Source of the DNA: Tersicoccus sp. Bi-70
Lineage (GTDB): Bacteria > Actinomycetota > Actinomycetes > Actinomycetales > Micrococcaceae
Length of the DNA: 64,000 nt
Assembly (NCBI RefSeq): GCF_001968825.1
Contig: NZ_MIEU01000014.1
Location: 1-64,000 of the forward strand
Reading direction: 5' to 3'
Positions within the stretch are counted from its first letter, which is position 1. Each line of letters begins with the position of its first letter. The translations under genes were made by a program, and so were the position numbers. Below, one piece after another: positions 6,219 to 36,387 of this stretch. The notes under the pieces are model-generated. The model ran no database searches. It was not told where the DNA came from and was given only the letters and a program-made list of their open reading frames with translations.

Positions 6219-7754
6219 CTACTCCCGGAGCAGGGATCGCAGCGTGCCGATGGTGTCGGCGTCCCCCGGCTGCTTGTCCTCGCGGTACCGCTTCACCCGG
6301 GCGAAGCGCAGCGCGACTCCGCCGGTGTAGCGGGTCGAGGACTGCACGCCGTCGATGGCGATCTCGACGACCGTGACGGGCTCGACGTACACGGTCTGCG
6401 CCGTGCGGCGGGTCTCGATCGCCTGGAACCGTTCGGTCTGCCAGCGCAGCAACTCGTCGGTCAGCCCCTTGAACGTCTTGCCGACCATCACGTACCCGCC
6501 CGGCTCGCCGAACTCCCCGTCCGGGTCCAGCGCTCCCAGGTGCAGGTTGGACAGCCACCCCTCCCGCCGGCCGGATCCCCATTCGCAGGCCAGGACGACG
6601 AGGTCGTAGGTGTGCACCGGTTTGACCTTGATCCAGCTCGACCCGCGCCGGCCGGCGGCGTAGGGCGAATCGATCGCCTTGACCACGACGCCTTCCTGTC
6701 CGGCGGCGAGCGCGTCGGCAGCGACCTGCTCGGCGGTCGCGGCGTCGTCCGTGACGGTCCCGGGCACCCGGAGCTCCGGGGCGATGCGCTGCAGTTCGGC
6801 GATCCGGACGGACAGCGGTTCGTCGAGCAGATCGCGCCCGTCCACGTGCAGGACGTCGAAGAACCACGGCGTCAGCACCGTCTCGCGCGCCGTCGCGGAG
6901 TCGGCCATCGTGCCGAAGCGCGACATCGTCTGCTGGAACGGTCGGGGCGCACCGGCCTCGTCGAGGGCCAGGGTCTCGCCGTCGAGGATGACGTCGCGCA
7001 CGGGCAGCGCCCGGACGGCGTCGACCACGTCGGGCAGCCGGTCCGTCACCTCGGCCAGACTCCGGGTGAAGACGTGCACGTCGTCGCCGGCGCGGTGCAC
7101 CTGGATGCGGGCGCCGTCGAGCTTGTACTCCACGGACGCCTCCGCCGTCGTGGTCAGCGCGTCGGTCGGGGTGGCCGCGGTCGCGGCGAGCATGGGCAGC
7201 ACCGGGCGGCCGACGACGAGCCCGACGGCGGCGAGCGCCTCCTCGCCGTCGGTGAGCGCGAGGCGGGCGGTGCCGCCGAGGTCGCCGGAGAGCATCACGG
7301 CGCGCCGCACGAGGGCCGCCGGGTGGCCGGAGGCGGCGACGATCGCATCGGTGAGCACGCCCTCCAGCGCTCCGGTACGGACCTCGCCGAGCAGGACGCG
7401 GGCGATGAAGTCCTGCTCGCCGGCCGTCGCCCGCGTCATCAGGCCGGCCAGGTCGCGGGCGCGGACCGCGTCGGAGCCGGAGCCCGTCGTCGTCAGCAAC
7501 CGGTCGAGGAAGGCGTCGAGGTCGGCGACCGTCAACGTCGATGCGGCGGCGGGATCGCCCGTGATCGCGCCGATGCTGCGGTAGCCGACCCCGACCCGGC
7601 CCTGCCGTGGCCGGCCGATCAGGAAGCCGACGGCGGGCGCGACGTCGTCGGGCTCCAGACGGCGGAGCAGGTCCGCGAGCGCGTCGACCTTGGCCAGGCG
7701 GGAGCGGGTGGCGGTGACGGTCGCGGCGGTGGTGACGAGGTCATCGAGGAGCAC
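6219..7754 (-). CDS. ligB: ATP-dependent DNA ligase (LigB type)
   Basis: 511 residues, the size of mycobacterial LigB. An N-terminal DNA-binding domain (about 1-200) precedes the nucleotidyltransferase motif I EYKLDGARIQVHR, with the adenylated Lys at residue 211. Later motifs are FTRSLAEVT (III-like), VILDGETLA (IIIa), EGVVVKAIDSPYAAGRRG (IV), WIKVKPV (V), and an OB-fold domain ending with FARVKRYREDK. It seals nicks using ATP; the essential replicative ligase in these bacteria is the NAD-dependent LigA, so this one is probably accessory repair. It is flanked on both sides by the 71-bp palindromic elements in opposite orientation. Confidence 0.93.
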   Translation of the reverse strand: MLLDDLVTTAATVTATRSRLAKVDALADLLRRLEPDDVAPAVGFLIGRPRQGRVGVGYRSIGAITGDPAAASTLTVADLDAFLDRLLTTTGSGSDAVRARDLAGLMTRATAGEQDFIARVLLGEVRTGALEGVLTDAIVAASGHPAALVRRAVMLSGDLGGTARLALTDGEEALAAVGLVVGRPVLPMLAATAATPTDALTTTAEASVEYKLDGARIQVHRAGDDVHVFTRSLAEVTDRLPDVVDAVRALPVRDVILDGETLALDEAGAPRPFQQTMSRFGTMADSATARETVLTPWFFDVLHVDGRDLLDEPLSVRIAELQRIAPELRVPGTVTDDAATAEQVAADALAAGQEGVVVKAIDSPYAAGRRGSSWIKVKPVHTYDLVVLACEWGSGRREGWLSNLHLGALDPDGEFGEPGGYVMVGKTFKGLTDELLRWQTERFQAIETRRTAQTVYVEPVTVVEIAIDGVQSSTRYTGGVALRFARVKRYREDKQPGDADTIGTLRSLLRE

Positions 7755-7905: not shown

Positions 7906-8544
7906 TCAGTCGACGACGCCGTAGAGGCGGTCGCCGGCGTCCCCGAGGCCCGGCACGATGTAGCCGTTCTCGTCGAGCTTCTCGTCGATCGAGGCGAGCA
8001 CGATGGTGACCCGGTCGTTGTCGCCGAGCTTCTCCTCGAGCGCGGCCAGACCCTCGGGCGCGGCCAGGAGGCAGATGCAGGTGACGTCCTCCGCGCCGCG
8101 GGCGAAGAGGAAGTTGATCGCCTCGCGCAGGGTGCCGCCGGTGGCGAGCATCGGGTCGAGGACGAACACCTGGCGGCCGGTCAGGTCGTCGGGCAGGCGC
8201 TCGGCGTAGGTCACGGCCTCGAGGGTCTGCTCGTTGCGGGCCATGCCGAGGAAGCCGACCTCGGCGGTGGGCACCAGCCGCGTCATGCCCTCGAGCATGC
8301 CGAGGCCCGCGCGCAGGATCGGCACGACGAGCGGGGTCGGCTTGTCCAGCCCGGTGCCCGTGGTGGTCGCGACGGGCGTGGTCACCTCAACGTCGTGCAC
8401 CCGGACGTTGCGCGTGGCCTCGTAGGCCAGCAGCGTCACCAGTTCCTCGGTCAGCTGCCGGAAGACCGGCGAGTTGGTGCTCTGGTCGCGGAGCACCGAG
8501 AGTTTGTGGGCGACGAGGGGGTGGTCGACGAGGCTGACGCGCAT
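7906..8544 (-). CDS. upp: Uracil phosphoribosyltransferase
   Basis: 212 residues. It makes UMP from uracil and PRPP in pyrimidine salvage. Family landmarks are [10 protein letters not shown] at the N terminus, [11 protein letters not shown] near residue 80, the PRPP loop [16 protein letters not shown] near 130 and the C-terminal [16 protein letters not shown]. The upstream frame stays open to 9054 antisense to tadA, but the family starts at [15 protein letters not shown] (8552-8557 on the complement) lies 7 nt before ATG 8544 with no SD, so the mRNA is probably leaderless. It diverges from tadA. Confidence 0.97.
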
Positions 8545-8577
8545 GGTGCCCAAACTATCAGCGGGCACAATGGCCTC
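8545..8577. promoter_or_regulatory. 33-bp divergent promoter region shared by upp and tadA
   Basis: Only 33 bp separate the two start codons. TAGTTT precedes the upp ATG by 7 nt on the minus strand. CACAAT precedes the tadA ATG by 6 nt on the plus strand. Both -10 boxes fit leaderless starts, which means each promoter's -35 region lies inside the other gene. The upp box is the stronger match. Confidence 0.5.
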
Positions 8578-9060
8578 ATGCCGCTGCCCGCCCCCTCTCA
8601 CGTCGCACGTGAGCGCCATGACGCGTGGATGGGGTTGGCCCTGACGGAGGCGGCCGCGGCCCTGGCGCACGACGACGTGCCGATCGGCGCCGTCGTCGTC
8701 GGTCCGGACGGCACCGTACTCGGCGCGGGCCACAACCGGCGGGAGGCCGACGCCGACCCGACCGCCCACGCCGAGGTGCTCGCGATCCGTGCGGCGGCGG
8801 CGCGGCTCGGCCGCTGGCGGCTGGAGGACTGCACCCTCGTCGTCACCCTGGAGCCGTGCGCGATGTGCGCCGGGGCCACCGTGCTCGCGCGCATCCCCCG
8901 CGTCGTCTTCGGGGCCTGGGACGATAAGGCGGGCGCCGCCGGATCCGTGTTCGAGGTGCTGCGCGAGCGCCGATTGAACCACTGGGTGGAGGTCTACCCC
9001 CGGGTCCGGGAGCAGGAGTGCGCCGCCCTGCTGCGGGACTTCTTCGCCGCGCACCGGTGA
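8578..9060 (+). CDS. tadA: tRNA(Arg) adenosine-34 deaminase
   Basis: 160 residues of the cytidine/deoxycytidylate deaminase fold. It converts wobble A34 of tRNA-Arg(ACG) to inosine. The zinc and proton-shuttle motif HAEVLAIR is near residue 64 and the second zinc motif [10 protein letters not shown] near 98. The N terminus could alternatively begin at a downstream Met ([12 protein letters not shown]). The next feature is a tRNA-Ser gene, a neighbourhood typical of actinobacteria. Confidence 0.93.
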
Positions 9061-24728: not shown

Positions 24729-25571
24729 TCAGGCCGGATCGGGACGACCCGGATCGGGACGGCTCGGATCGGGACGGCTCGGGTCGGATCGGCTCGCGTC
24801 GGAGCGGCTCGGGTCCCCGGCCGGCTCCCCGCCGCGCCGCCCCGTCGGACGCCAGGTGTCGATCCCGACGACGACGCCGAGGATGGCGACGGCGAGCAGG
24901 GCGGACGCCGTGACGTCGGTGAGCCAGTGGTAGCCGAGGTAGAGCCGGCTGAACGCGACGACGAACACCGCGACGAGCGCCCCGGCCAGTGCCACCCACC
25001 GGCCGGCACCCCGGCGTCGGCCCGCCGTCGTCGCCCCGTGACGGAAGAACAGCAGGTAGACGAGCACGAAGGTGAAGGTCGCGGTGCCCAGGGTGTGCCC
25101 GGACGGGAACGAGTAGGAGGCGTCGGCGCCCATCAGCATGTCCGCCACGGGCGGCCGCCCGCGACCGGCGATCGACTTGATGCCGACGATGCAGGCCACG
25201 GCCACGGCCATCGCGCCGGCGAGCAGCACGGGCCGCCACCAGTGCCGGCTGCGCGCCAGCCACACCACCACGGTGACGAGACTGATGATGATCATCCCGG
25301 TCGGGGCGGTGATCGTGGTGATCACCTCGAGCGTGGTGGTCAGCGGCGGAATGCGGTGCTGCAGCAGCCAGGCCAGCAGGGGGATGTCCCAGCGCGAGAG
25401 GTCCTCCTTGTGCGTCCACCAGTCCCAGATGCGGGTGAACATGAGCAGGCCGCCGACCACCAGGATCGCGGCGACGACGAGGCGGGTGCGCCGGGGACCG
25501 GCCATCGGAGGCTCGGCGAAGCGGTCGGCGAGGGAGATCGGCTGCCGGCGCAGCGGCGCGGAGGAGGACAC
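24729..25571 (-). CDS. PAP2-family phosphatase with repetitive C-terminal tail
   Basis: 280 residues, about six membrane helices. The three PAP2 phosphatase motifs are present: KSIAGRGRPP, SYSFPSGHTLGT and SRLYLGYHWLTDV. Members dephosphorylate lipid phosphates at the membrane. TACGCT lies 6 nt before GTG 25571, supporting that start and a leaderless mRNA. The C terminus ends in about 25 residues of SRPDP/GRPDP repeats encoded by 15-bp DNA repeats (24736-24810), probably a dispensable tail. Confidence 0.87.
   Translation of the reverse strand: MSSSAPLRRQPISLADRFAEPPMAGPRRTRLVVAAILVVGGLLMFTRIWDWWTHKEDLSRWDIPLLAWLLQHRIPPLTTTLEVITTITAPTGMIIISLVTVVVWLARSRHWWRPVLLAGAMAVAVACIVGIKSIAGRGRPPVADMLMGADASYSFPSGHTLGTATFTFVLVYLLFFRHGATTAGRRRGAGRWVALAGALVAVFVVAFSRLYLGYHWLTDVTASALLAVAILGVVVGIDTWRPTGRRGGEPAGDPSRSDASRSDPSRPDPSRPDPGRPDPA
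24736..24810. repeat. 15-bp tandem repeat in the PAP2 C-terminal tail
   Basis: Five units of GGATCGGGACGGCTC-like sequence; units 2 and 3 are identical and the others differ at a few bases. 15 bp keeps frame, so copy changes would only lengthen or shorten the polar protein tail. Confidence 0.75.
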
Positions 25572-25670
25572 AGGGGAAGCGTAGGCCACCCGGCTCGGAG
25601 GCCCCCGTGTGCGGCCGGTCGGCTGCGTGGCGGTGGGGCGCCCGGCCCCCGATCGGATAGAACAGAGGAC

Positions 25671-26213
25671 ATGAGCAACGTGCGCACGCCCGACCCGTAC
25701 CCCGGATGGCTCTCTCCGGAGGACCTCCACGAGGCACGCCAGCGGCTACCCATGGTGTACGTGGAGGCCCTGCCGGTCCGCGTCGACACCCTCGGTTATG
25801 TGACCGAGATCGGGTTGCTGCTGACCGCGAGCGACGAGGGCGAGATGGTCCGCACCTTCGTCTCCGGCCGCGTCCTGTACCGGGAGTCGATCCGCGCGGC
25901 GCTGCTGCGCCACCTCGAGAAGGACCTCGGCCCGTTCGCGCTGCCGCAGATCCCGCCGTCGCCCGTGCCGTTCACGGTCGCCGAGTACTTCCCGTCGCCG
26001 TCGCCCTCGCCCTACACGGACGACCGGCAGCACGCCGTCGCGCTCGCCTATGTCGTACCGGTGACCGGGGAGTGCACTCCGCGCCAGGACGCCCTGCAGC
26101 TGTCATGGCTGACGCCGGACGAGTGCCTGAGCGACGGCGTGCAGGCGGAGTTCGTGGGCGGCCGCGGGAACCTCGTCCGGCAGGCGCTGGCCCACGTCGG
26201 CTGGGGTCGCTGA
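25671..26213 (+). CDS. DUF4916/NUDIX-like hydrolase
   Basis: 180 residues matching the actinobacterial DUF4916 group, which has a NUDIX-like fold. Recognisable are the N-terminal GWLSPEDLHEARQRLPMVYVEALP, the Nudix-helix-like stretch GRVLYRESIRAALLRHLEKDLGP and VALAYVVPVTGECTPRQDALQLSWLTPDE. A canonical Nudix box (GX5EX7REUXEE) is not complete, so enzymatic activity is uncertain. TAGAAC sits 7 nt upstream of the ATG, overlapping an SD-like GAGGA. It is separated from the convergent FUSC gene by two bases. Confidence 0.72.
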   Translation: MSNVRTPDPYPGWLSPEDLHEARQRLPMVYVEALPVRVDTLGYVTEIGLLLTASDEGEMVRTFVSGRVLYRESIRAALLRHLEKDLGPFALPQIPPSPVPFTVAEYFPSPSPSPYTDDRQHAVALAYVVPVTGECTPRQDALQLSWLTPDECLSDGVQAEFVGGRGNLVRQALAHVGWGR

Positions 26214-26215
26214 CC

Positions 26216-27250
26216 TCAGCCCTGCGGTGCCCGCTGCCGGCGGATCCGTTCCACCACCGGGCTGAGCACCACGACGACGGCCACCGCCACGGCGGCACCG
26301 ATCACCGTCTCGATCGCCCGGCTGAACACCAGCTGCTCGACCGGCATCGGGTTGCCCAACTGCACCATGCACAGGGCCAGGGGCGTGATGAAGATCAGGG
26401 CCGTGGCGTAGTGCCGGATGACGAACAGCTCGCCGAGGAACTGCAGGACGATGACGACGATCGCCAGCGGCCACGGGCTCGGGTGGAAGCCGAGGATGAC
26501 GGCGGTCAGCGCGACACCGGCGAGGGTGCCGACCACGCGGTGGATCGCCCGGCTGACGCGGGCGGGCGCGTCCGGGGCGGCGATCGCGGCGATGCCGGCG
26601 ACCATCGCCCAGTTGCTGTGCCCGGCGCCGGAGAGCTGACCGAGCAGGCCCGCGACCAGCGCGACGACGAGGAACTGACTGCCGTGCCACGCGAGCTGGG
26701 CGGGGCTGAAGGAGCCGCCGGGCAGGGCGGCGCCGTCGCCCATGCCGGGGAGGACACGCGAGAGCACCCCCAGCAGCACGCAGAAGACGACGGTCGCGAC
26801 GGCGACGCCAAGGCCCGACAGGAACGACGGGGGCGTCGGCAGCGCCGCGATCGACGTGAACGCGAAGACGAAGAACACCGAGCCGCTGGGCTTGAAGCCG
26901 ACGGCGGCGGCCACGACCGCGCCCAGGGCGGCGACGACCGCGCCGATCAGCACGATGCTCAGCCCGCTGACCTGCGCGTGCGCACTCGACAGGCCGAGGG
27001 CCAGGCAGATGAGGATGATGACGCCGGCGAGGGACTGGTGGACGACCCGGCGGCGCAGCGTCTCCCGCTTGGCGTAGATGCCGGTGAACGAGCCGAAGGC
27101 CGCGAACACGGCCAGGTCGGCCCGTCCCAGGATCATCACGAGCAGCAGCGGCACCGCGATACCGACGGCGATCCGCGCTGCCGAGAGGTGATCGGCCTGC
27201 GCGGGACCGAACCTGAAGAAGTCGCGAACACCCGTCACGTCATCCAGCAC
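26216..27250 (-). CDS. FUSC-family membrane protein
   Basis: 344 residues with about nine to ten hydrophobic helices in two blocks. The FUSC signatures FAAFGSFTGIYAKRETLRRR near residue 52 and the second-half RVSRAIHRVVGTLAGVALTAVIL near 230 are present. Related proteins (AaeB, YccS) export aromatic acids or are of unknown function. The start is GTG 27250; no SD or clear -10 is visible, and a GTG six codons downstream (VRDFFRFG) is an alternative. It precedes the bacteriocin locus but is separated from its last gene by 108 nt. Confidence 0.82.
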   Translation of the reverse strand: MLDDVTGVRDFFRFGPAQADHLSAARIAVGIAVPLLLVMILGRADLAVFAAFGSFTGIYAKRETLRRRVVHQSLAGVIILICLALGLSSAHAQVSGLSIVLIGAVVAALGAVVAAAVGFKPSGSVFFVFAFTSIAALPTPPSFLSGLGVAVATVVFCVLLGVLSRVLPGMGDGAALPGGSFSPAQLAWHGSQFLVVALVAGLLGQLSGAGHSNWAMVAGIAAIAAPDAPARVSRAIHRVVGTLAGVALTAVILGFHPSPWPLAIVVIVLQFLGELFVIRHYATALIFITPLALCMVQLGNPMPVEQLVFSRAIETVIGAAVAVAVVVVLSPVVERIRRQRAPQG

Positions 27251-27358
27251 ATCACACCGGCGGGACGGAAGACCTGGATCGGGGCGGTTCCGTCGCGGAT
27301 CTCACGCCCGCCGGGATCAGCCGGGAGGCGCCTCAGCGTCCGGCGCCCCGCGCCGCGG

Positions 27359-27586
27359 TCAGTGGCCGGTGCCCGTGCCCGACGGGCGACCGCGCCGGGT
27401 GACGACGGCGTGCGTGACACCCGCCGCGGCCAGCCCGACGACGATGCTGATGATGGCCCGCACCACCACGGGCAGCTCGGTGCCGACCGCGAGCAGAACG
27501 GCGACGGCGGTGATGGCCAGGATCAGGGCAGCGGTGGCGGCACGGTCGGCGGTCTTGTTCTTCACGGTGGTGGTCCTGTTCGTCAC
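27359..27586 (-). CDS. Small membrane protein, last gene of the bacteriocin locus (putative immunity accessory)
   Basis: 75 residues starting at GTG 27586, preceded by GAAGGA at 9 nt. Two hydrophobic helices, ALILAITAVAVLLAVG and VVVRAIISIVVGLAAAGVTHAVV, are separated by a short turn, with a basic Arg/Lys-Thr N terminus and a polar GRPSGTGTGH tail. I do not recognise a family. Its position, 68 nt after the ABC permease on the same strand, suggests it belongs to the bacteriocin self-protection module; small two-helix proteins do occur in leaderless bacteriocin loci. This is inference from context. Confidence 0.6.
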   Translation of the reverse strand: MTNRTTTVKNKTADRAATAALILAITAVAVLLAVGTELPVVVRAIISIVVGLAAAGVTHAVVTRRGRPSGTGTGH

Positions 27587-27654
27587 GGTGATCGGTCCTT
27601 CGCGGTGGTCGCTGCTGTGCGGTGGTCGATGCTGCGGGTTCGTCACGAGCGGGC

Positions 27655-28470
27655 TCACGCGTCCTGGCGACGGAAGCGGACGAGCGCCAGCAGGGCCACA
27701 CCGAGCCCCCAGACCGCCAGGCCCGCCTGACCGGTGAGCATCGATCCCACCCCGGTGGACGGGAGCGCGGTGACCCCGATGGCTCGGAACATCAAGGGCG
27801 TCGGCGTCGCCTCGACGGTACCGCCGACGATGTCCTGCAGCTGCGGTGGCAGCGCCGCGCCGAGCGCCCCGAGCGCGAGAGGCAGGATGACCAGCACGCC
27901 GAGCAGGATCAGCACGGCGCCCGAGGACCGTCCCACGAGCGAGGCGGCACCGAAGGCGAGCAGCGTCAGGCTCGAGGACGCGACCACCACGAGCAGCACG
28001 CCGAGCGCGACCCACGGCGCGGCCTCCAGCGTTCCCACGAGGCAGCCGATCCCGCCGACCAGCGCCGCCGGGACCGCGGCCGCGACGGCGCCGAGGACGA
28101 CGTGGGCGAGGGCGCGGGCCAGGAAGAGGCGTCGCCGGTCCGGCACGAGCGTCAGGGCGACGCGCACGTGGCCGCCGGTGTCCCGGCCGACGCCGAGCGC
28201 CGTGCCGATGGCGACGGAGAGTGCCGCGAGGAACCCGGACACCTCGAGCGGCAGCGTCGCCACCTGCCGCGGCACCGTCTCGGTGATGAACAGGATGACG
28301 GCGAGCGTGCCGAACCCTCCCAGGACGGCCAGCGCCGTCGCGGTGATCAGGGTCCCCCGCAGGCCTCCCCGGCGGGTGAGCCGGCGCAGTTCGGCCCGGG
28401 CGACCAGGAGCAGGTCCTGCGGGGCCGGCCTCCCGGACGCGGCCTCGATCGCCGCGGCGGTCTGACTCAT
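27655..28470 (-). CDS. ABC transporter permease of the bacteriocin locus
   Basis: 271 residues, ABC-2-like integral membrane subunit with about six hydrophobic segments, including GTLITATALAVLGGFGTLAVILF, LAHVVLGAVAAAVPAALVGGI and SGAVLILLGVLVILPLALGALGA. The early motif ARAELRRLTRRGGLRGTL is typical of actinobacterial ABC-2 permeases. It overlaps the ATPase gene by 4 nt (stop/start coupling). By analogy with the LnqEF-type exporters of lacticin Q, it would export the mature bacteriocin and/or remove it from the membrane. No protease domain is needed, because the peptide has no leader. Confidence 0.83.
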   Translation of the reverse strand: MSQTAAAIEAASGRPAPQDLLLVARAELRRLTRRGGLRGTLITATALAVLGGFGTLAVILFITETVPRQVATLPLEVSGFLAALSVAIGTALGVGRDTGGHVRVALTLVPDRRRLFLARALAHVVLGAVAAAVPAALVGGIGCLVGTLEAAPWVALGVLLVVVASSSLTLLAFGAASLVGRSSGAVLILLGVLVILPLALGALGAALPPQLQDIVGGTVEATPTPLMFRAIGVTALPSTGVGSMLTGQAGLAVWGLGVALLALVRFRRQDA

Positions 28471-29369
28471 CGGAGCCGCTCCCCTTCCGGTTCGGTCAGC
28501 AGGTCGAAGTAGGTCTCCTCCAGGGAGCGGGACACCGCGGCGAGGTGGCTCAGGCCGGCACCGCACGCGAACGCGATCCGGCCGACCTCGGTGGCGGCCA
28601 GTCCCTGGACGAGGACGCCCGCCCCGTCGGGACGGTGCTCCACTCCGCGCTGCCGTAGCTGGTCGAGCACGCGGGGCAGGTCGGGCGACTCCAGATAGAC
28701 GCTCGAGACCGTCGCCCCCGTGGACACGAACTCGTCGAGCGTTCCCTGCGCCGCCACCCGCCCCTCACGCAGCATCACCACGCGGTCGGCGACCATCGAC
28801 AGTTCGCTCATGTGGTGCGAGGAGAGCAGGACGGTGGCGCCGTCCCGGGCCATCTGGGCGATGAACGAGCGGAACCACTGGATGCCGTCGGGGTCCAGCC
28901 CGTTGACCGGCTCGTCGAGCACGAGGATCCGGGGGTGGCACACCGTGGCCGCGGCGATCCCGAGCCGCTGCCGCATCCCGAGGGAGAAGGTGCGGACGGG
29001 TGCGGATCCGACGTGGTCCAGCCCGCTGAGCGTCAGCGCCCCCCGGGCTCGGGCCCGCGTCACCGCCTGGGTGTCGCAGACGTACTCGAGGAAGCCGAGC
29101 GCGCTCACCTGCGGCGGGATCCACTCGGCCGACAGGAACACGCCCATCAGCAGCCCCGGGTGGGACGCGGAGCCGGGCTCGCCGCCGTCGATCATGACCC
29201 GGCCCGCATCGGGCCGGGCCAGGCCCGTCACCATCCGCAGCACCGTCGTCTTGCCCGCCCCGTTCGGTCCCACGAAGCCCGTCACGGCGCCCGCGGGTGC
29301 CGTGAAGGAGACGTCCGTGACGGCGGCACGGGTGCCGAAGGACTTGCTGACCCCCCTCACCTCGATCAT
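28467..29369 (-). CDS. ABC transporter ATP-binding protein of the bacteriocin locus
   Basis: 300 residues. Walker A GPNGAGKTTVLRM is near residue 38, the Q-loop segment LSAEWIPPQ near 80, signature TFSLGMRQRLGIA near 130, Walker B ILVLDEPVNGLDPDG near 155 and the switch His in LLSSHHMSEL near 185. The C-terminal extension (about 215-300) is typical of multidrug/antibiotic-type ABC-2 ATPases. The ATG overlaps the stop of the PH-domain gene (ATGA), and the permease overlaps its own end, so the four genes behave as one translationally coupled unit. Confidence 0.88.
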   Translation of the reverse strand: MIEVRGVSKSFGTRAAVTDVSFTAPAGAVTGFVGPNGAGKTTVLRMVTGLARPDAGRVMIDGGEPGSASHPGLLMGVFLSAEWIPPQVSALGFLEYVCDTQAVTRARARGALTLSGLDHVGSAPVRTFSLGMRQRLGIAAATVCHPRILVLDEPVNGLDPDGIQWFRSFIAQMARDGATVLLSSHHMSELSMVADRVVMLREGRVAAQGTLDEFVSTGATVSSVYLESPDLPRVLDQLRQRGVEHRPDGAGVLVQGLAATEVGRIAFACGAGLSHLAAVSRSLEETYFDLLTEPEGERLR

Positions 29370-30910
29370 GATGCTGCGCTCGCTCTCTCGCGTCGTTCCC
29401 GAGCCAGGGGCAGGGATGTGCGGCTGATGGAGGCGCCGAGGGCACTGCTCACGGCGGGACGGGCGGTGACGGCGGTGAGCGCGCGGGAGCGGGCCGCCCA
29501 GTAGTGGGCGCGGACCAGCCGCACCCCGTGCTCGCCCGGGCCGAACGCGGTCACCAGATGCACCGATCGTGCGGAGACGATCAGCTCGGTCTCCACCAGG
29601 TGGCGGACCGTCCACACCGCGGAGGCGTCCCGGAGGGCGAGCCGCGCGGTGATCAGCCGGCCGGCGAGGAGCAGCAGGGCGACCACCAGCAGCCCGGCGG
29701 CCAGCGACACCGCGAGCGGGAAGCCCCGGTCCCGGACGGCCAGCACCACCGGCACCGGGATCGCGGCGACGGCGAGCAGGACGACGGCAGCACGCGGGAA
29801 GGACCGGCGGCCGGAGGCGGCCAGCAGGTCGATGGGCGCCTGCCCCGGGAAGAGCGCGTGCACGATGGCGGTCACCGTGGGGCGAGGCAGCGAGGGCAGC
29901 ACCAGGTTGGTCCCCAGCTGGGCGGTGGAGTCGGCGGTGATCAGCGAGACGCGGACCCGGTCCGCCAGCATCTCGACGGCATTCCGGTGCGCCCGCACCC
30001 CCACCACGGTCGAGGCGCGGATCTCCCGCTCGTGGCGCTCGATCAGTCCGTAGCGGATGGTGATCAGGTCCCGTCCCGCGTACACCTCGAACCCGTGGAA
30101 CCGCACGAGGGTCATCAGGAATCCGAGGCCGAGGGCGACGACGACCAGGGCCACCGCCAGCAGCGGGCCCGAGGCCACCATCGTCAGGGTCTGGTCCAGC
30201 AGTCCGGCCTGGTCCACCAGGTCCATCATCGCGGCCGCAGCGGTGGTGCCCAGCACGACGAACTGTCCGTAGGCGAGGCTGGCGACCAGCAGTTCCCCGG
30301 AGCTCGCCCGGTAGACCAGCCGCCCGGCGGCGGGACCCAGCGCCTCGCCCGCGCCGGACCCGGGTTCGGGCGCCACGGCGGTCTGCTCGTCGGGCCCGGG
30401 CCCGGCGTCGGGAACCAGCGGTCCGGCGTCGGCTCCGACGTCAGCTCCGGCGTCGGCATCGACCCCGGCGACGGGACCGCGATGCGCCTGCACGGCGGCG
30501 GACCACGCGCGGATCGTGGCGTCGGGCAGTCCGTTGAGCGTGAGCACGGTGTCGTCGTCCCCGCCCACGCGCAGCGACACGATGCCGAGCCGGAGCAGTC
30601 GGTGGGACCAGGGCGCCTCGATGTCCAGGACGACGACGCTGTGCCAGCCGATGGTCCGGGAGGTGCGCACCACCAGGCCGGTGCGCAACCGCAGCTGGTC
30701 CGCCGTGCTCGACCAGGTGGTGGTCAGCCAGGAGTACAGGGGATGGATCAGGCGCGCCGCCAGCAGCAGCCCGATGATCACCCAGGCCCATCGGCCCGGC
30801 CACAGGTCCGGCTCGAGGCCGTAGATCACCGCGGCGGACACCAGGCCCGCGATGCTGGGCAGGTAGTGCAGATACGCCGCGAGCAGGGCGGAGGCGGGCA
30901 GTCGCGTCAT
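29366..30910 (-). CDS. Large multi-PH-domain membrane protein (YdbT-like), bacteriocin locus
   Basis: 514 residues with three repeats of the bacterial PH (bPH2/DUF304) plan, each a hydrophobic pair followed by a beta-rich domain. The units are about 20-140 (LRLRTGLVVRTSRTIGWHSVVVLDI), 190-350 (FEVYAGRDLITIRYGLIERHEREI) and 385-500. A Pro/Gly/Asp-rich linker near 145-190 separates the first two. In aureocin A53/lacticin Q clusters, two such PH proteins accompany the ABC exporter and contribute to secretion and self-immunity. It begins 4 nt after the smaller PH gene and overlaps the ATPase gene. ATG 30910 is the first in-frame start. Confidence 0.83.
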   Translation of the reverse strand: MTRLPASALLAAYLHYLPSIAGLVSAAVIYGLEPDLWPGRWAWVIIGLLLAARLIHPLYSWLTTTWSSTADQLRLRTGLVVRTSRTIGWHSVVVLDIEAPWSHRLLRLGIVSLRVGGDDDTVLTLNGLPDATIRAWSAAVQAHRGPVAGVDADAGADVGADAGPLVPDAGPGPDEQTAVAPEPGSGAGEALGPAAGRLVYRASSGELLVASLAYGQFVVLGTTAAAAMMDLVDQAGLLDQTLTMVASGPLLAVALVVVALGLGFLMTLVRFHGFEVYAGRDLITIRYGLIERHEREIRASTVVGVRAHRNAVEMLADRVRVSLITADSTAQLGTNLVLPSLPRPTVTAIVHALFPGQAPIDLLAASGRRSFPRAAVVLLAVAAIPVPVVLAVRDRGFPLAVSLAAGLLVVALLLLAGRLITARLALRDASAVWTVRHLVETELIVSARSVHLVTAFGPGEHGVRLVRAHYWAARSRALTAVTARPAVSSALGASISRTSLPLARERRERASAAS

Positions 30911-30914
30911 CGGG

Positions 30915-31451
30915 TCACGCCTCGGCCGACGGCTCGTCGTCCGCGTCCAGGTACGCGGAGAGGGCGCGGGAACGCACGGACTCCGCCTCGGCCACGGTCA
31001 GAGGCCCGAGGGGTTCGACCTCGCTGATGCAGGTGAAGGTGACGCGCGCCAGTCCCCAGTGGCGCAGCAGCGGACCCTCGTTCACGGTGACGTTCAACAG
31101 TTGTGCCGTGGCGATCGTCGTTTCCCGCACGAGAAGACGGCCGTGCCGGATACGCACACTCGAGGCGTCGACGGAATACCGGGTATTGCGGACGGACCAC
31201 CGATTGAACAGACACAGATCGGCGACCGTTCCCACCACCACGACGACAAGAAGAATACCGAGCACGAGGAATCGCCACGATTCCGGCAGGAAGAGAAGAA
31301 TGCCCGCGGAGAGTACCGCCGTCACCGGCAGGACGGTGAGGAGCGACCGGATGGTGGTGTAGCGCAGGGCCACCGGTGGCAGCGTCGACCCGGGCAGCGC
31401 CTGACGGCGGGACGGCCCCTCCGTCACCGCTGTGCTCTGCTGTGTCTGCAT
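30915..31451 (-). CDS. Small PH-domain membrane protein (YdbS-like), bacteriocin locus
   Basis: 178 residues. Two membrane helices (about 35-56 and 59-82, LVLGILLVVVVVGTVADL) precede one bPH2 domain with TRYSVDASSVRIRHGRLLVRETTI and LLNVTVNEGPLLRHWGLARVTF. This is the YdbS architecture, normally paired with a YdbT-like partner as here. The SD GAGGAAGG lies 5 nt before ATG 31451. Parts of the gene (31080-31320) are visibly less GC-rich than neighbouring housekeeping genes, consistent with horizontal acquisition. Likely role: production or immunity for the bacteriocin encoded just upstream. Confidence 0.83.
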   Translation of the reverse strand: MQTQQSTAVTEGPSRRQALPGSTLPPVALRYTTIRSLLTVLPVTAVLSAGILLFLPESWRFLVLGILLVVVVVGTVADLCLFNRWSVRNTRYSVDASSVRIRHGRLLVRETTIATAQLLNVTVNEGPLLRHWGLARVTFTCISEVEPLGPLTVAEAESVRSRALSAYLDADDEPSAEA

Positions 31452-31476
31452 GAGACCTTCCTCGTCGAATGCCGAC

Positions 31477-31510
31477 GAGCGGCCGGGCGCCGTGAGGCAC
31501 CCGACCGCTC
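31477..31510 (-). terminator. Hairpin between the bacteriocin gene and the PH/ABC genes (possible attenuator)
   Basis: On the minus strand GAGCGGTCGGGTGCC (31510-31496) pairs with GGCGCCCGGCCGCTC (31491-31477) around TCAC; two pairs are G-U, so the RNA stem is complete over 15 bp. It lies 18 nt past the bacteriocin stop and 26 nt before the next start. There is no U-tract, so partial termination or 3'-end stabilisation of a short bacteriocin mRNA is more likely than full termination. Confidence 0.6.
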
Positions 31511-31527
31511 ACCGTGCGTCGCTGGCG

Positions 31528-31713
31528 TCAGGCCAGGCCGAGGTGCTGCAGGATCCAGTGCAGGATCGTGCCGTAGGCGATCCCCCGGTCCAGCCACTTC
31601 AGCACGGTACGCCAGTTGTTCTTCGCCCAGCTGGCGGCCTTCGCGACCTTCGAAGCCCCGTACTTCCATGCCTGCTTCAGCACCCAGGCGACGAATTTCA
31701 AGACTCTCCACAT
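31528..31713 (-). CDS. Leaderless class II bacteriocin, aureocin A53/lacticin Q-like
   Basis: 61 residues, no signal peptide, no double-Gly leader and no cysteine. Seven Trp (2, 10, 16, 29, 34, 40, 53), seven Lys and three Arg against one Asp give about +9 charge. The order of features matches aureocin A53 and lacticin Q: an N-terminal LKFVAW/LKQAWKYG segment, a central Ala/Lys helix, then VLKWLDRG and a C-terminal W-x-L-x-x-L helix ending GL. Such peptides are made in active form and permeabilise target membranes. The SD AAGGGGA sits 8 nt before ATG 31713. Gene context (PH pair, ABC pair, regulator, phased operator) agrees. It is about ten residues longer than the type members (51-53). Assignment is by recalled alignment, not a search. 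Confidence 0.82.
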   Translation of the reverse strand: MWRVLKFVAWVLKQAWKYGASKVAKAASWAKNNWRTVLKWLDRGIAYGTILHWILQHLGLA

Positions 31714-31779
31714 TGGCTTTTCCCCTTGCTTGAACGACTGCTCGAGACCCGATTCCTTGAACCCCTCGGGCTGTGTTCA

Positions 31780-31808
31780 ACGCTAGGTTTGCCGCCCATT
31801 CCTGCCTA
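31780..31808 (-). promoter_or_regulatory. Predicted bacteriocin promoter with weak -35
   Basis: TAGCGT (complement of 31780-31785) is a reasonable -10, giving a start near 31773 and a ~60-nt 5' leader. The -35 position 17 bp upstream reads TAGGCA, a poor match to TTGACA. The first of four phased repeats begins right next to it. A weak -35 with adjacent upstream sites is the pattern of an activator-dependent promoter. Confidence 0.5.
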
Positions 31809-31890
31809 TTGGTCGTTCGTCTCGACCTGGTGGCCATTCGTCGCGATCCGCTGGCCTTTCGTCGGGTCCGGTCAGCCGTTCGTCTCGACG
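31807..31890. repeat. Four direct repeats at exact 21-bp spacing upstream of the bacteriocin gene
   Basis: TTCGTC occurs at 31816, 31837, 31858 and 31879, exactly 21 bp apart, embedded in a wider consensus TGGYCNTTCGTCKCGAYC (18 positions). Flanking GG..C and G..CC halves give each site partial dyad symmetry, clearest in copy 1 (GGTCG-N7-CGACC). 21 bp is two helical turns, so four proteins would stack on one face of DNA immediately upstream of the -35 region. Best explained as binding sites of the regulator encoded at 31959-32636 or a similar activator. Confidence 0.78.
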
Positions 31891-31958
31891 CCGTCGACGC
31901 GAGTAGGTCCGACATAGCCGGAAGTCGACACCGAGCACCGCCGTGAGGCCGGGACCGG

Positions 31959-32636
31959 TCAGCTCCGCACGGCGTCATGCTCCACGACCCCCGCCCCGAT
32001 CGCCCGGATGACCACCTGCACCCGGTCCCGGGCGTTCCACTTCGACATCACGCGACTGAGGTGTGCCTTGACCGTGGCCTCGGCGATGTGGAGTGACTGG
32101 GCGATCTCGGTGTTCGTCGACCCCTTCATCAGCTGCGTCACGACGGCGTGCTCCCGTTCCGAGAGCGTCTCGTGCTGCCGCAGGGGCGAGCGGCTCCCGG
32201 AGCTGAGGTACTGGCTGACCATCTCGAGCGTCAACCGCATGATGGTCCGGGACGCGTACACGTGGCCCGCGGAGACCTCCCGGACCGCTGCGACCAGCTC
32301 CTCCGCGGTGGCGTCGGCGCCGACGACCCCGCGGGCGCCGGCGGCGAACATCCGCGCCGTCGCATCCGCGCACCGCACGGTGACCACGGCGATCACCTGG
32401 ACGTCCGGGCTGCCGCGCAGCAGGTCCACCACGTCCAGGGCGCTGGCCAGCGCGTCCGCGCGGGCGTCGAGGAGGACGAGCGGGGCTGCCCGGGACCGGC
32501 ACGCCGTGGCGAGGTCCAGTCCGTCGGCGAGGTGGACCTCGGCGGCATCGATGTCGTCCTGATGGGCGAGCAGCCCGGACAGGGCACAGCACATCAAACT
32601 CTCCGAGGACGCGACCAGGACCCGAGTCGACGACAT
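31959..32636 (-). CDS. Orphan LuxR-type regulator with degenerate receiver domain
   Basis: 225 residues, NarL/FixJ layout. The receiver-like domain (1-120) keeps the phospho-acceptor position D57 (LVLLDARAD), but the acidic pair at the start of the fold is S10-S11 (VLVASSESL) and the conserved Lys of the fifth strand is replaced (ARGVVGADAT). Normal aspartyl phosphorylation is therefore doubtful. The HTH (about 150-215) is complete: LSEREHAVVTQLMKGSTNTEIAQ..ATVKAHLSRVMSKW. No histidine kinase is nearby. It lies directly upstream of the bacteriocin operator array in the same orientation, so it is the obvious candidate to bind the 21-bp repeats. Confidence 0.85.
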   Translation of the reverse strand: MSSTRVLVASSESLMCCALSGLLAHQDDIDAAEVHLADGLDLATACRSRAAPLVLLDARADALASALDVVDLLRGSPDVQVIAVVTVRCADATARMFAAGARGVVGADATAEELVAAVREVSAGHVYASRTIMRLTLEMVSQYLSSGSRSPLRQHETLSEREHAVVTQLMKGSTNTEIAQSLHIAEATVKAHLSRVMSKWNARDRVQVVIRAIGAGVVEHDAVRS

Positions 32637-32638
32637 CG

Positions 32639-32654
32639 TCTATCCCCCCATAGA
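32639..32654 (-). promoter_or_regulatory. Small palindrome overlapping the regulator's ribosome-binding site
   Basis: TCTAT-N6-ATAGA brackets the run GGGGGG (minus strand) that serves as the SD just before ATG 32636. It could be an operator for autoregulation or a hairpin hiding the SD. The rest of the gap to tgt (32655-32817) shows only the tgt promoter-like CAGAAT. Confidence 0.4.
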
Positions 32655-32817
32655 TGGTGTGGTCCGCACGGCCGACAGGATCCGACGGCGCGAACCCGAT
32701 CAACATAGCCTCCTCCTGCACCACCCCGCACCTGTCGCTGCAGAAAGTTGCAGAGGTGCAACGCGGGCCGTCCCGCGGCAGCGCGGGCGCCGAGCTGCCC
32801 GCTGGCAGAATGGACCG

Positions 32818-34101
32818 ATGCCTCACGACGACTTCTCCTTCCGCGTCACCGCCCGCCTGAACGAGACGACGTCGTCGGCCGGGGCGGGGCGCGCGGGCGT
32901 CATCGACACCCCGCACGGGCCGATCCGCACCCCCGCCTTCATCCCCGTCGGGACGCAGGCCGCGGTCAAGGCCGTGCTGCCCGAGGCGATCGCCGAGCTC
33001 GGCGGCCAGGCCGTCCTCGCCAACGCCTACCACCTCTACCTGCAGCCCGGCGCGGACATCGTCGACGAGGCGGGTGGGCTCGGCCGGTTCATGAACTGGC
33101 CCGGTCCCACGTTCACCGACTCCGGCGGCTTCCAGGTGATGAGCCTGGGCAGCGGCTTCAAGAAGGTCATCTCGATGGACCTGCCGGCCGGCGACCAGGG
33201 CGTCGACGACGCCGTCGCTCCCGGCAAGGAGCGGCTGGCGGACGTCGACGAGGACGGCGTCTGGTTCCGCTCCCACCTCAACGGCGACCGCCACCGGTTC
33301 ACGCCCGAGGTGTCGATGGGCATCCAGCACCAGCTCGGCGCGGACATCATGTTCGCCTTCGACGAGCTGACCACCCTGATGAACTCGCGCGGCTACCAGG
33401 AGGAGTCCCTCGAACGGACCCGCCGCTGGGCACAGCGCTGCCTCGACGAGCACGCCCGGCTCACCACGGAGCGGACCGGCAGGCCCTACCAGGCCCTGTT
33501 CGGCGTCATCCAGGGCGCCCAGTACGAGGACCTGCGCCGCAAGGCCTGTACCGACCTGGCGGAGATGCGCGCGGCGACAGCCGGCGGGGACGGCCACGGC
33601 TTCGACGGCTACGGCATCGGCGGCGCGCTGGAGAAGGAGAACCTCGGCACGATCGTCGGCTGGTGCGCCCAGGAGCTGCCCGAGGACCGGCCGCGCCACC
33701 TGCTCGGCATCTCCGAGCCGGACGACGTGTTCACCGCGATCGAGAACGGCGCCGACACCTTCGACTGCGTCTCCCCCACCCGCGTCGCCCGCACGTCCGC
33801 GGTCTACACCCGGGACGGCCGGATCAACCTGGCCGGTGCAAGGTACAAGCGCCAGTTCACGCCCATCGACGAGACCTGCGACTGCTACACCTGCGCCCAC
33901 TACACGGTCGCGTACCTGCGGCACCTGTTCAAGGCGAAGGAGATGAACGCCTCCACGCTGGCGTCGATCCACAACGAGCGGTTCGTGGTGCGGATGGTCG
34001 ACGACGCGCGGCGGGCGCTGGAGGACGGCTCGTTCCTCGACCTGAAGACCGAGGTGCTGGGCCGCTATTACGGCACGCGGATGACGACGCCGGCCGGCTG
34101 A
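32818..34101 (+). CDS. tgt: Queuine/preQ1 tRNA-guanine transglycosylase (TGT)
   Basis: 427 residues. It exchanges G34 of GUN-decoding tRNAs for a queuosine precursor. Landmarks are PVGTQAAVKAVLP, TDSGGFQVMSLG (nucleophile region), the variant substrate-site FAFDELTT, FGVIQGAQYEDLR, YGIGGALEKE and the zinc site CDCYTCAHYTVAYLRHL. Between FQV and FRSH an insert of ~25 residues (KKVISMDLPAGDQGVDD...) enlarges the protein relative to E. coli TGT. CAGAAT lies 6 nt before ATG 32818, again a leaderless-type start. A queuosine-precursor transporter is encoded 3 kb downstream. Confidence 0.92.
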   Translation: MPHDDFSFRVTARLNETTSSAGAGRAGVIDTPHGPIRTPAFIPVGTQAAVKAVLPEAIAELGGQAVLANAYHLYLQPGADIVDEAGGLGRFMNWPGPTFTDSGGFQVMSLGSGFKKVISMDLPAGDQGVDDAVAPGKERLADVDEDGVWFRSHLNGDRHRFTPEVSMGIQHQLGADIMFAFDELTTLMNSRGYQEESLERTRRWAQRCLDEHARLTTERTGRPYQALFGVIQGAQYEDLRRKACTDLAEMRAATAGGDGHGFDGYGIGGALEKENLGTIVGWCAQELPEDRPRHLLGISEPDDVFTAIENGADTFDCVSPTRVARTSAVYTRDGRINLAGARYKRQFTPIDETCDCYTCAHYTVAYLRHLFKAKEMNASTLASIHNERFVVRMVDDARRALEDGSFLDLKTEVLGRYYGTRMTTPAG

Positions 34102-34117
34102 GGCGGGTCGCTCCCCC

Positions 34118-35701
34118 TCAGGACGTGATCGGCGGGGTGGTCGCGATGAGGACGACGACGAGCACCACGACGGCCTGCGCCACGATCAGCAGCGGCGCGG
34201 TCGCGCCGATCACCAGGGCGACGACGACGGGGACCAGCACGACGACGGCGAGGTCCGGCCCCTGTGACATCGTGGCGAGCGCGGAGGACGGCAGGTAGCC
34301 GAACGGGGTCGGGATCGGTGGTGCGGAGAAGTCCACGGGTGGCCGGTACGCCGATCGGACGGCGCAGGCTCCCAGCCCGAGGCCCGCGATCGCTCCGACG
34401 GCGATGAGACCGGGATCCGCGGCGCCGAGCAGGACCAGGCCGGCGCACAGCACCGTCATCATGCCCCCGAGCAGCAGGGCGGGGACCGCGGCGTGGAGCT
34501 GCCGGGTGCGCGCGGCCGAGAGCGGGAGCAGGCCGTCGAGCTCGGTCATCGCCGCGCCGGCACGCACCGTCCGGGCGGCCGTGGCCATCCCAGCGAGCGC
34601 CGTGAGCACGAGTACCAGCGCGACCGGCACCAGGCCGTTCGCCCCGACGATGAACGCCGGCGACCAGGCCGCCGCCGGCAGCACCGCGAGGGTCCACGAG
34701 CCGCGCTGCCGCACGGCGCTGATCGCGTCCGCGGCCAGCAGCGCGCCGACGGCGGTACGGACGCGGGCGATCCACCGGTGTGCCCGCGTGGTCGAGGCGA
34801 CGGCAGACGGTCCCGTCCGCACCAGCTCGTCGGCGCCACCCGTGATGGCCCAGAGCTGCAGCATCTGGACGGCGCCACCACCGCGGGCGAGTTCGGACGT
34901 CGTGATGGTGCCGAGCCGACGACGTACCGCGAGCCACCCGACGGCGACGACGGCCGCGAGCGCCACCGGGGGCCACACCGCGCCGCCGGCGGCGATGACG
35001 AACCACCCGGTCGGCGCCGCGGTGAGGACGCCCGCGATCATCGGGACCCCGGTGGGCAGCAACCACCCGGACAGCACCAGGGCGAGACCGGCCGCGGCGG
35101 CGGCCACCCCCAGCCCGGCCGTCACCCGGCGCATCAGCGGGACGCGCCCGGCGGCCTGAGCGGCGACGGCGACCTCGGCGGCGAGCGCGGCCAGCAGCCC
35201 ACCGGTGATCGCCCCGAGCACCAGTCCGGGACCGAGGGTGAGGACCGCGAGCACCGGCAGGAGGCACAGCGCGCCCACGGCCGCGGCCGCCAGCACCCGG
35301 CTCGCGCCCTGACGCGCCAGCAGGCCCGCGCGGGGAACGGGGGCCCACAGCCACCACGCCAGCTGGGCACGGTCCGGTCCGACGGGCCCGAGCCGCAGGG
35401 CGGCACCGAGCGCCGCGGTCGTGAGGATCAGCCCCAGCAGGGGCAGACACGTCGCGGCGGGCAGCACCGCCGCGGCCGGGTCGGTCACCGGGCGCACGAC
35501 GGTCACGGCACCGAGCTGGTGGTTCAACGCCGTCAGCAGGCCGTAGCCGAACAGCCCGGCGACGCCCACCGAGAGCACCGCGGTGTAGCCGTCGAGGAGC
35601 GCCGACGCGGCCGATCGGGTCCGGTGCCGCCGCGAGGCACGTCGGGTGAACGCGGCGGGATCGAATCCGGTGACCGCACCGGCGTCCAGGGTCGCGCTCA
35701 C
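34118..35701 (-). CDS. Multi-helix ABC transporter membrane protein
   Basis: 527 residues with about twelve hydrophobic segments (for example AVLSVGVAGLFGYGLLTAL, ALVLVLTALAGMATAA, LVPVVVALVIGATAPLLIVA). There is no recognisable family signature beyond an ABC-exporter-like arrangement. The start GTG 35701 overlaps the stop of the ATPase gene, which makes it that ATPase's membrane partner. Substrate unknown. It converges with tgt, 16 nt apart. Confidence 0.75.
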   Translation of the reverse strand: MSATLDAGAVTGFDPAAFTRRASRRHRTRSAASALLDGYTAVLSVGVAGLFGYGLLTALNHQLGAVTVVRPVTDPAAAVLPAATCLPLLGLILTTAALGAALRLGPVGPDRAQLAWWLWAPVPRAGLLARQGASRVLAAAAVGALCLLPVLAVLTLGPGLVLGAITGGLLAALAAEVAVAAQAAGRVPLMRRVTAGLGVAAAAAGLALVLSGWLLPTGVPMIAGVLTAAPTGWFVIAAGGAVWPPVALAAVVAVGWLAVRRRLGTITTSELARGGGAVQMLQLWAITGGADELVRTGPSAVASTTRAHRWIARVRTAVGALLAADAISAVRQRGSWTLAVLPAAAWSPAFIVGANGLVPVALVLVLTALAGMATAARTVRAGAAMTELDGLLPLSAARTRQLHAAVPALLLGGMMTVLCAGLVLLGAADPGLIAVGAIAGLGLGACAVRSAYRPPVDFSAPPIPTPFGYLPSSALATMSQGPDLAVVVLVPVVVALVIGATAPLLIVAQAVVVLVVVLIATTPPITS

Positions 35702-36387
35702 GTGCGGGTGCCGGAGATGAGCGCCGCGCCGTCGGCGACCGGGACGAGGCGGACCTCGTCGTCGATCACCAGGCACGTGGTCGCCGTCGCGAGCAGGAGG
35801 TCGGGAGCGTGGGTGACGACGACGACGGCACCTCCGTCGCCCGCCCGGTCACGGATCCGGCCGCCCAGGAGTTCGCGCATCACCGGATCGAGCCGCTGCT
35901 CCGGTTCGTCCAGCACCAGCAGGTCGGCGGGACGGATGAACCCGGCGGCCAGGAGCAGGCGCCGCCGCTGGCCGGAGGACAATTCCGTGGGCAGGGCGTC
36001 GGCGACGGCGGTGATGCCGAAGGCGTCGAGTTCGCGGGCGACCGCCTCGACGGGCTCGCGCATCCCGTGGCCGCGGGCCACCAGTTCGAGGTGCTCCGCG
36101 GCGGTCAGGGAGGGGAAGAACGCGTCCTCGTCGAACACGCAGGAGACGGCCGCCCGGAACGCGGCGGCACGGTCGTCGACGAGGAGTCCGCGGAACCGGC
36201 ACTCGCCGTCGAGGGGAGGCTGGCGGCCGATCATGGTGCGCACCACGGTCGACTTGCCCGCTCCGTTGAAGCCGACGATGCCGAGGACCTCGCCGGGTGA
36301 CACCGAGGCCGTCACCGGCCCGCACACCGGCGTCGTCCCGTACCCGCAGCTCAGGTCACGGACGCTCAGGATCGCGGTTCCGCTCAT
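35698..36387 (-). CDS. ABC transporter ATP-binding protein
   Basis: 229 residues. Walker A GFNGAGKSTVVRT, signature LSSGQRRRLLLA (SSGQ rather than SGGQ), Walker B DLLVLDEPEQRLDP and the switch region VVVVTHAPDLL are present. TAGCGT (36395-36400, complement) lies 7 nt before ATG 36387 with no SD, predicting a leaderless mRNA. Coupled by GTGA overlap to the membrane-subunit gene. It is a second, unrelated ABC system about 5 kb from the bacteriocin exporter; a connection between them is not indicated. Confidence 0.87.
   Translation of the reverse strand: MSGTAILSVRDLSCGYGTTPVCGPVTASVSPGEVLGIVGFNGAGKSTVVRTMIGRQPPLDGECRFRGLLVDDRAAAFRAAVSCVFDEDAFFPSLTAAEHLELVARGHGMREPVEAVARELDAFGITAVADALPTELSSGQRRRLLLAAGFIRPADLLVLDEPEQRLDPVMRELLGGRIRDRAGDGGAVVVVTHAPDLLLATATTCLVIDDEVRLVPVADGAALISGTRT

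Follow-up and report, generated by a model that had tools for sequence, protein, structure and literature searches.

A receiver-degenerate NarL-type regulator adjoins a predicted leaderless bacteriocin cluster in Tersicoccus sp. Bi-70 and may work without phosphorylation

The window, by which we mean the whole 64,000-nucleotide stretch of Tersicoccus sp. Bi-70 DNA that was analysed, carries on its minus strand a run of genes in the order regulator, bacteriocin, bPHs, bPHb, ABC ATPase and presumed permease. The features of this locus are:

31959..32636, minus strand: regulator, 225 aa with an ATG start, a degenerate receiver followed by a GerE/LuxR helix-turn-helix (HTH)
32262-32636 (about residues 1-125), minus strand: receiver part of the regulator, degenerate
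32004-32168 (residues 157-211), minus strand: GerE/LuxR HTH of the regulator, 63.7 bits (cut-off 23.5)
31789..31888, minus strand: candidate operator of four direct repeats at 21 bp, between regulator and bacteriocin, with predicted binding
31778..31791, minus strand: core-promoter-like motif CAAACCTAGCGTTG, just downstream of the array, with putative function
31528..31713, minus strand: leaderless bacteriocin of the aureocin A53 family, 61 aa, NF033881 36.6 bits (cut-off 27)
30915..31451, minus strand: bPHs, small bPH_2 membrane protein, PF03703 31.8 bits (cut-off 22)
29366..30910, minus strand: bPHb, large bPH_2 membrane protein, PF03703 42.9 bits
28467..29369, minus strand: ABC transporter ATPase, PF00005 89.3 bits, start set at an ATGA overlap with bPHb
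27655..28470, minus strand: presumed ABC permease, named from its position and hydrophobic sequence, start at an ATGA overlap with the ATPase gene, no match in Pfam or NCBIfam

The peptide scores above the NF033881 cut-off and has bPH_2 and ABC genes adjoining it, which identifies the locus as an aureocin A53-type cluster, and the regulator probably controls this small antibacterial peptide gene. Across 396 genomes of the order, NF033881 found no match outside the strain's own genome. The cluster is flanked by a TGT (queuine tRNA-ribosyltransferase) gene, divergent to the regulator (32659-34101, plus strand, PF01702 402.7 bits), and on the other side by a FUSC_2 gene (26216-27250, minus strand). 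G+C content drops to ~65% at 31000-31999, whereas the remaining 500-bp steps of 25000-35999 range from 70 to 80%. A GGGGGGA stretch is present 5′ of the regulator gene.

The C-terminal GerE/LuxR HTH, with its score above cut-off, places the regulator among NarL/FixJ (LuxR-type) proteins. Against Pfam Response_reg the receiver scored 17.5 bits, below the cut-off of 30.2, and direct reading of its pocket positions gave S10, S11, D57, V85 and A107. One of five receiver catalytic residues (D57) is left; the acidic pair, the Thr and the Lys are replaced. The initial annotation had proposed that Ser10-Ser11 replace the acidic pair, that Asp57 is retained and that the strand-5 Lys is missing, and each of these was borne out, with beta1 ungapped in phmmer alignments to LiaR and VraR and the LiaR Lys aligned with A107. 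In the same alignments the catalytic Thr of LiaR and VraR falls on V85 rather than T86, revealing a fourth catalytic loss that the annotation had overlooked. Of the acidic pair, Asp, Thr and Lys expected in a functional two-component protein, the regulator thus has the Asp alone, and with four of five key phosphotransfer residues lost from a receiver fold it matches a pseudo-receiver protein in this respect. The D+4 Pro, D+8 Gly and K-3 aromatic are likewise missing, and these are positions at which pseudo-receivers as a class differ from receivers, according to excerpts of PMC12632262.

Relatives were sought at two levels. Within the family, 175 of 295 genomes matched at E 1e-20, loci being taken from the best places only; within the phylum, 59 of 396 genomes matched at E 1e-25, giving 29 loci besides the window. 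Residues were counted over 61 rows (58 distinct), leaving aside the window protein and its ortholog; three proteins of the strain's own genome, the paralog L003 and the large LuxR proteins L004 and L005, were excluded before counting. Asp at the first acidic position, the phospho-site Asp, the Thr and the Lys were each present in 61/61 relatives, and the second acidic position held Asp in 59/61 and Asn in 2/61. Acidic residues at shifted positions, which the annotation had named as grounds for rejecting its reading, were looked for and none was found. E12 aligns with the residue following the acidic pair, and in the structure model it lies between beta1 (4-10) and alpha1 (13-24), where it does not rescue the pair. 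D108 was ruled out as a substitute for the Lys, being the K+1 Asp found in 58/61 relatives, and T86 was ruled out as the catalytic Thr because position 85 is Thr in 61/61 relatives, in agreement with the LiaR and VraR alignments. The excluded paralog L003 (C18:44796-45272; L003:1285-1983, plus strand) is a response-regulator-like frame with Asp, Thr and Lys regions, whose N-terminal beta1 part, which would carry the acidic pair, is missing or replaced.

AlphaFold2 modelled the regulator as an alternating five-strand, five-helix receiver plus HTH (mean pLDDT 90.8), a prediction that leans on intact relatives, since these make up 30 of the 32 rows of its alignment. The best Foldseek chains for this model were LiaR, VraR, spr1814 and DesR. 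Full-length superpositions were poor (rmsd mostly >12 Å), as expected from domain swivel, and the receiver alone superposed on the DesR receiver at 2.7 Å (TM 0.83 of target). LiaR, VraR and DesR are the closest solved structures by sequence and fold and have the NarL-type architecture in common with the regulator; they differ from it in that their pocket is intact and a partner kinase exists.

The sole other degenerate protein among the relatives examined was the nearest ortholog, at locus L039 in genome G055, which belongs to another genus of the family. It has lost all five catalytic residues, the positions reading S, K, A, V and S (Ala at 57), and gave no match to the Pfam receiver model at E 0.01. 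The two proteins form one clade (100/100; 26 full-length rows), on a long branch and with an unusual letter make-up in the L039 protein, and they share 20 residues that each occur in at most two of the 61 relatives. The single clade and these rare shared residues suggest that most of the residue loss predates the split of the window and G055 proteins, and from this comparison D57 would have been lost in the G055 line, after most other losses.

Identity between the two degenerate proteins is unevenly distributed, at 22.3% over residues 4-97, 61.8% over residues 98-131 (beta5-alpha5) and 70.3% over residues 156-219 (HTH). Not one of 1830 pairs among the 61 relatives had a receiver front of such low identity, and control pairs with an HTH identity of 67-74% (n=218) averaged 57.4% in the receiver (minimum 44.1%) and 64.0% in beta5-alpha5. 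This pattern indicates release or redirection of the phosphorylation half, with constraint persisting on alpha5, the start of the linker and the HTH, and it favours a DNA-binding dimer without input from the receiver front over a conserved ligand pocket.

The annotation had also remarked that no histidine kinase is nearby. For the HisKA_3 class this holds genome-wide, as the sole such kinase adjoins another response regulator, L002, leaving the window regulator without a cognate HisKA_3 kinase. L039 shares the gene neighbourhood, in the order two peptides, regulator, bPHs and bPHb, with the regulator gene overlapping bPHs by 4 bp. The peptides (8122-8304 and 8323-8505, plus strand) score 26.2 and 26.4 bits with NF033881, slightly below the cut-off of 27, and the nearest ABC-ATPase match is at the far end of the 16-kb stretch. 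The second peptide also scores 23.7 bits with AMEP412_fam (cut-off 45), and the two families may be related. A search of this 16-kb stretch for a kinase H-box motif returned nothing but an ‘ELHDL’ frame, which was ruled out as a kinase because it has no Pfam match and is antisense to a long frame, presumably purL.

We identified three further related clusters, two from Arthrobacter (L049 and L050, apparently NZ_SSWH01000023.1 and NZ_CANLSZ010000015.1) and one from a Micrococcus MAG (L053, JAUNTT010000030.1). In all three, homologues of bPHs and bPHb (bPHb tblastn 2e-40, 4e-43 and 3e-25, respectively) are accompanied by a regulator with an intact pocket and, on the opposite strand, a HisKA_3 kinase (50.3, 50.8 and 35.0 bits; cut-off 24). 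Past its regulator, L049 additionally encodes an ABC ATPase. Their peptides of 58-71 aa match the window peptide at 31-40% over 33-54 aa in a short BLAST against a tiny database, and with no NF033881 match above cut-off (best 11.6 bits) they are presumed bacteriocins. The bPH_2 genes, the gene order and this short peptide similarity suggest that the three belong to the same cluster family as the window. Across the five clusters, kinase and intact pocket thus occur together in three (two genera), the window has neither an intact pocket nor a spare HisKA_3 kinase, and L039 combines a lost pocket with the lack of an adjoining kinase. Since both degenerate cases are one clade, this contrast amounts to one loss event at best. 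By bPHb the cluster is sporadic, occurring in 1/3 genomes of the window genus, 1/2 of the G055 genus and 2/38 of the Arthrobacter genus. Plasmids searched with the regulator, the bacteriocin and bPHb gave no match, nor did genome contigs searched with a two-row bPHb alignment, and the search of viral contigs was empty. Two genomes with bPH_2-type pairs (G907 and G804) were dropped as extra clusters for want of a convincing peptide or regulator match.

In a tree of beta5-alpha5 plus HTH (55 rows) the degenerate pair fell within an 18-row group (98/94) that also holds the intact cluster regulators and other kinase-linked regulators. Descent of the degenerate regulators from an intact regulator is well supported by these comparisons, and that ancestor may have been the bacteriocin cluster's own regulator. 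A narrower clade of the pair and its ten closest intact rows, a group picked after the first tree, was not rejected (p-AU 0.285), which establishes no clade.

Between the regulator and bacteriocin genes, the repeat core ACGAANG recurs at 31883, 31862, 31841 and 31820 (first base of each copy, minus strand). The 21-bp self-match of the array extends to 43/63 positions, a value that 0/300 dinucleotide shuffles equalled (largest 33), and its two-core pattern is unique within the genome. Single 13-bp units with at most two mismatches occur in the window no more often than chance would give (10 versus 14.0 expected), so the array alone is meaningful; a fifth copy, out of register, is not claimed. 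The region 5′ of the L039 peptides matches the motif CAAACCTAGCGTTG at 13/14 positions, about as far from the start codon as in the window, and 6/1000 shuffled pairs score equally high. If CCTAGC is taken as the −10 hexamer, the repeat centres lie near −43, −64, −85 and −106 from the putative start site. We found neither a terminator nor a consensus sigma-70 promoter in 31400-32850, the latter being expected to be lacking at an activator-dependent promoter. The array was not detected 5′ of the L039 peptides (best lag 36; 6/300 shuffles at span 42, 104/300 at span 63) or, by shuffle test, in L049 and L050, which counts against a conserved binding site. Neither the array nor the kinase-bearing sister clusters had figured in the initial annotation.

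We consider it somewhat probable that the window protein is a cluster-situated regulator of NarL type, exerting control over the bacteriocin operon by binding to the array, independently of phosphorylation and probably through its own level and dimerisation. Such a regulator would once have been an ordinary two-component response regulator that lost its phosphorylation chemistry and kinase partner. The sequence comparisons strongly suggest that it works without phosphorylation, as the annotation had supposed: four of the five residues are missing, the ortholog lacks every one of them and the genome has no spare HisKA_3 kinase, which makes phosphorylation control very unlikely. We have moderate confidence that the regulator would bind the four 21-bp repeats, which would lie on one helix face in a class II activator geometry, and similarly moderate confidence that, once array-bound, it would activate the bacteriocin-bPHs-bPHb-ABC genes from the putative start site. 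The weakest step is that the on/off state may be set by regulator level, by dimerisation via the conserved alpha5 side and by cooperative array binding. Retention of D57 in the window protein counts against this reading, as does support from just two known degenerate sequences of a single clade; an Asp of this type matters for dimerisation in some atypical regulators, according to excerpts of PMC12632262.

Alternatively, DNA binding may be switched when the pseudo-receiver is occupied by the bacteriocin, by a metabolite or by a partner, for example a bPH_2 protein. Such gating has precedent in antibiotic clusters, where end products act on JadR1 and RedZ (PMC12632262, in excerpt), and the overlap of the regulator and bPHs genes in L039 makes a partner link conceivable. 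However, small molecules act on JadR1 and RedZ, whereas the predicted product of the window cluster is a peptide for export, and receiver fronts this divergent show no shared pocket. Orthologs tuned to different ligands would diverge equally, so the low identity would be compatible with separate ligands in the window and L039 proteins. The ligand switch put forward by the annotation is thus possible but unsupported, and we judge it rather unlikely; control by regulator level, another of the options it had listed, fits better.

A decaying regulator, whose receiver drifts because the protein is unimportant while the operon is constitutive or otherwise controlled, would account for the very fast receiver divergence and for a window array with no counterpart in L039. 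We find this doubtful, because the open frame and the HTH identity have been maintained across two genera, beta5-alpha5 has diverged at a normal level, and the regulator stays beside the peptide genes in both clusters. Residual phospho-control at D57, through acetyl phosphate or a distant kinase, could appeal to the retained Asp and to a kinase search that covered the HisKA_3 class, but it is highly improbable given the loss of both acidic residues, Thr and Lys from the window protein, the Ala at 57 in the ortholog, and the role of the Asp of GlnR and RamR in dimer formation rather than phosphorylation (excerpts of PMC12632262).

Returning to the phosphorylation-independent regulator, we tentatively suggest, as a wider scenario that is on balance unlikely, that a kinase-plus-regulator bacteriocin operon was rewired in one Micrococcaceae lineage, with the kinase lost and the receiver kept as a structural pseudo-receiver, giving a concentration-driven switch that acts via an array of four helically phased sites. 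Within one bacterial family, clusters whose membrane-protein genes are homologous would then be served in some cases by an intact regulator with a kinase and in others by a pseudo-receiver without one. Such rewiring, if true, would offer a naturally occurring comparison, before and after, of how pseudo-receivers originate and function. Its compact output and candidate operator make the window system suited to testing pseudo-receiver action, and the protein may represent a candidate class of regulator for the leaderless bacteriocins of actinobacteria.

Antibiotic clusters with orphan pseudo-receiver regulators have been described before. RedZ, JadR1, PapR6 and VmsT are likewise cluster-situated, with a degenerate receiver and a DNA-binding output, but they belong to Streptomyces small-molecule pathways in which end products inhibit JadR1 and RedZ, as excerpted from PMC12632262; the window system differs in having a leaderless peptide cluster, in Micrococcaceae, and kinase-bearing sister clusters. 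WhiI and BldM are orphan atypical response regulators of Streptomyces development, of which WhiI is similarly missing the Lys and one member of the acidic pair; they differ as developmental regulators that form a heterodimer, with no bacteriocin link in the excerpts of PMC4125116. Excerpts of PMC6131525 name LnqR (TetR family) and AurR as known regulators of leaderless bacteriocins, with no common mechanism seen. Leaderless bacteriocin clusters of Actinomycetota described in parts of PMC11580447 resemble the window in combining an A53-type peptide, a PH-domain protein and ABC transport. A53-type clusters are also named there in Brevilactibacter and Blastococcus, and one Brevilactibacter cluster is said to include a DNA-binding response regulator; those parts of the text hold no LuxR or histidine kinase mention and no pocket analysis. 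We did not find the leaderless-bacteriocin setting or the kinase/no-kinase contrast in open-access full-text literature, and as the search was limited to open access and mostly to listings, novelty is provisional.

Two of the sister clusters hold further sequence of note. In L049, a sub-cut-off NF033881 match (6336-6422, plus strand, 24.2 bits) lies beyond the 71-aa peptide frame; the surrounding frame is interrupted by stops and gives no clean ORF. A second peptide gene, now broken, may lie here. In L053, the region 5′ of the Micrococcus MAG peptides (8205-8620) shows a weak 24-bp periodicity with CCTTCGGCCC-like units (1/300 shuffles at span 63, 33/300 at span 42), possibly an operator for the intact regulator.
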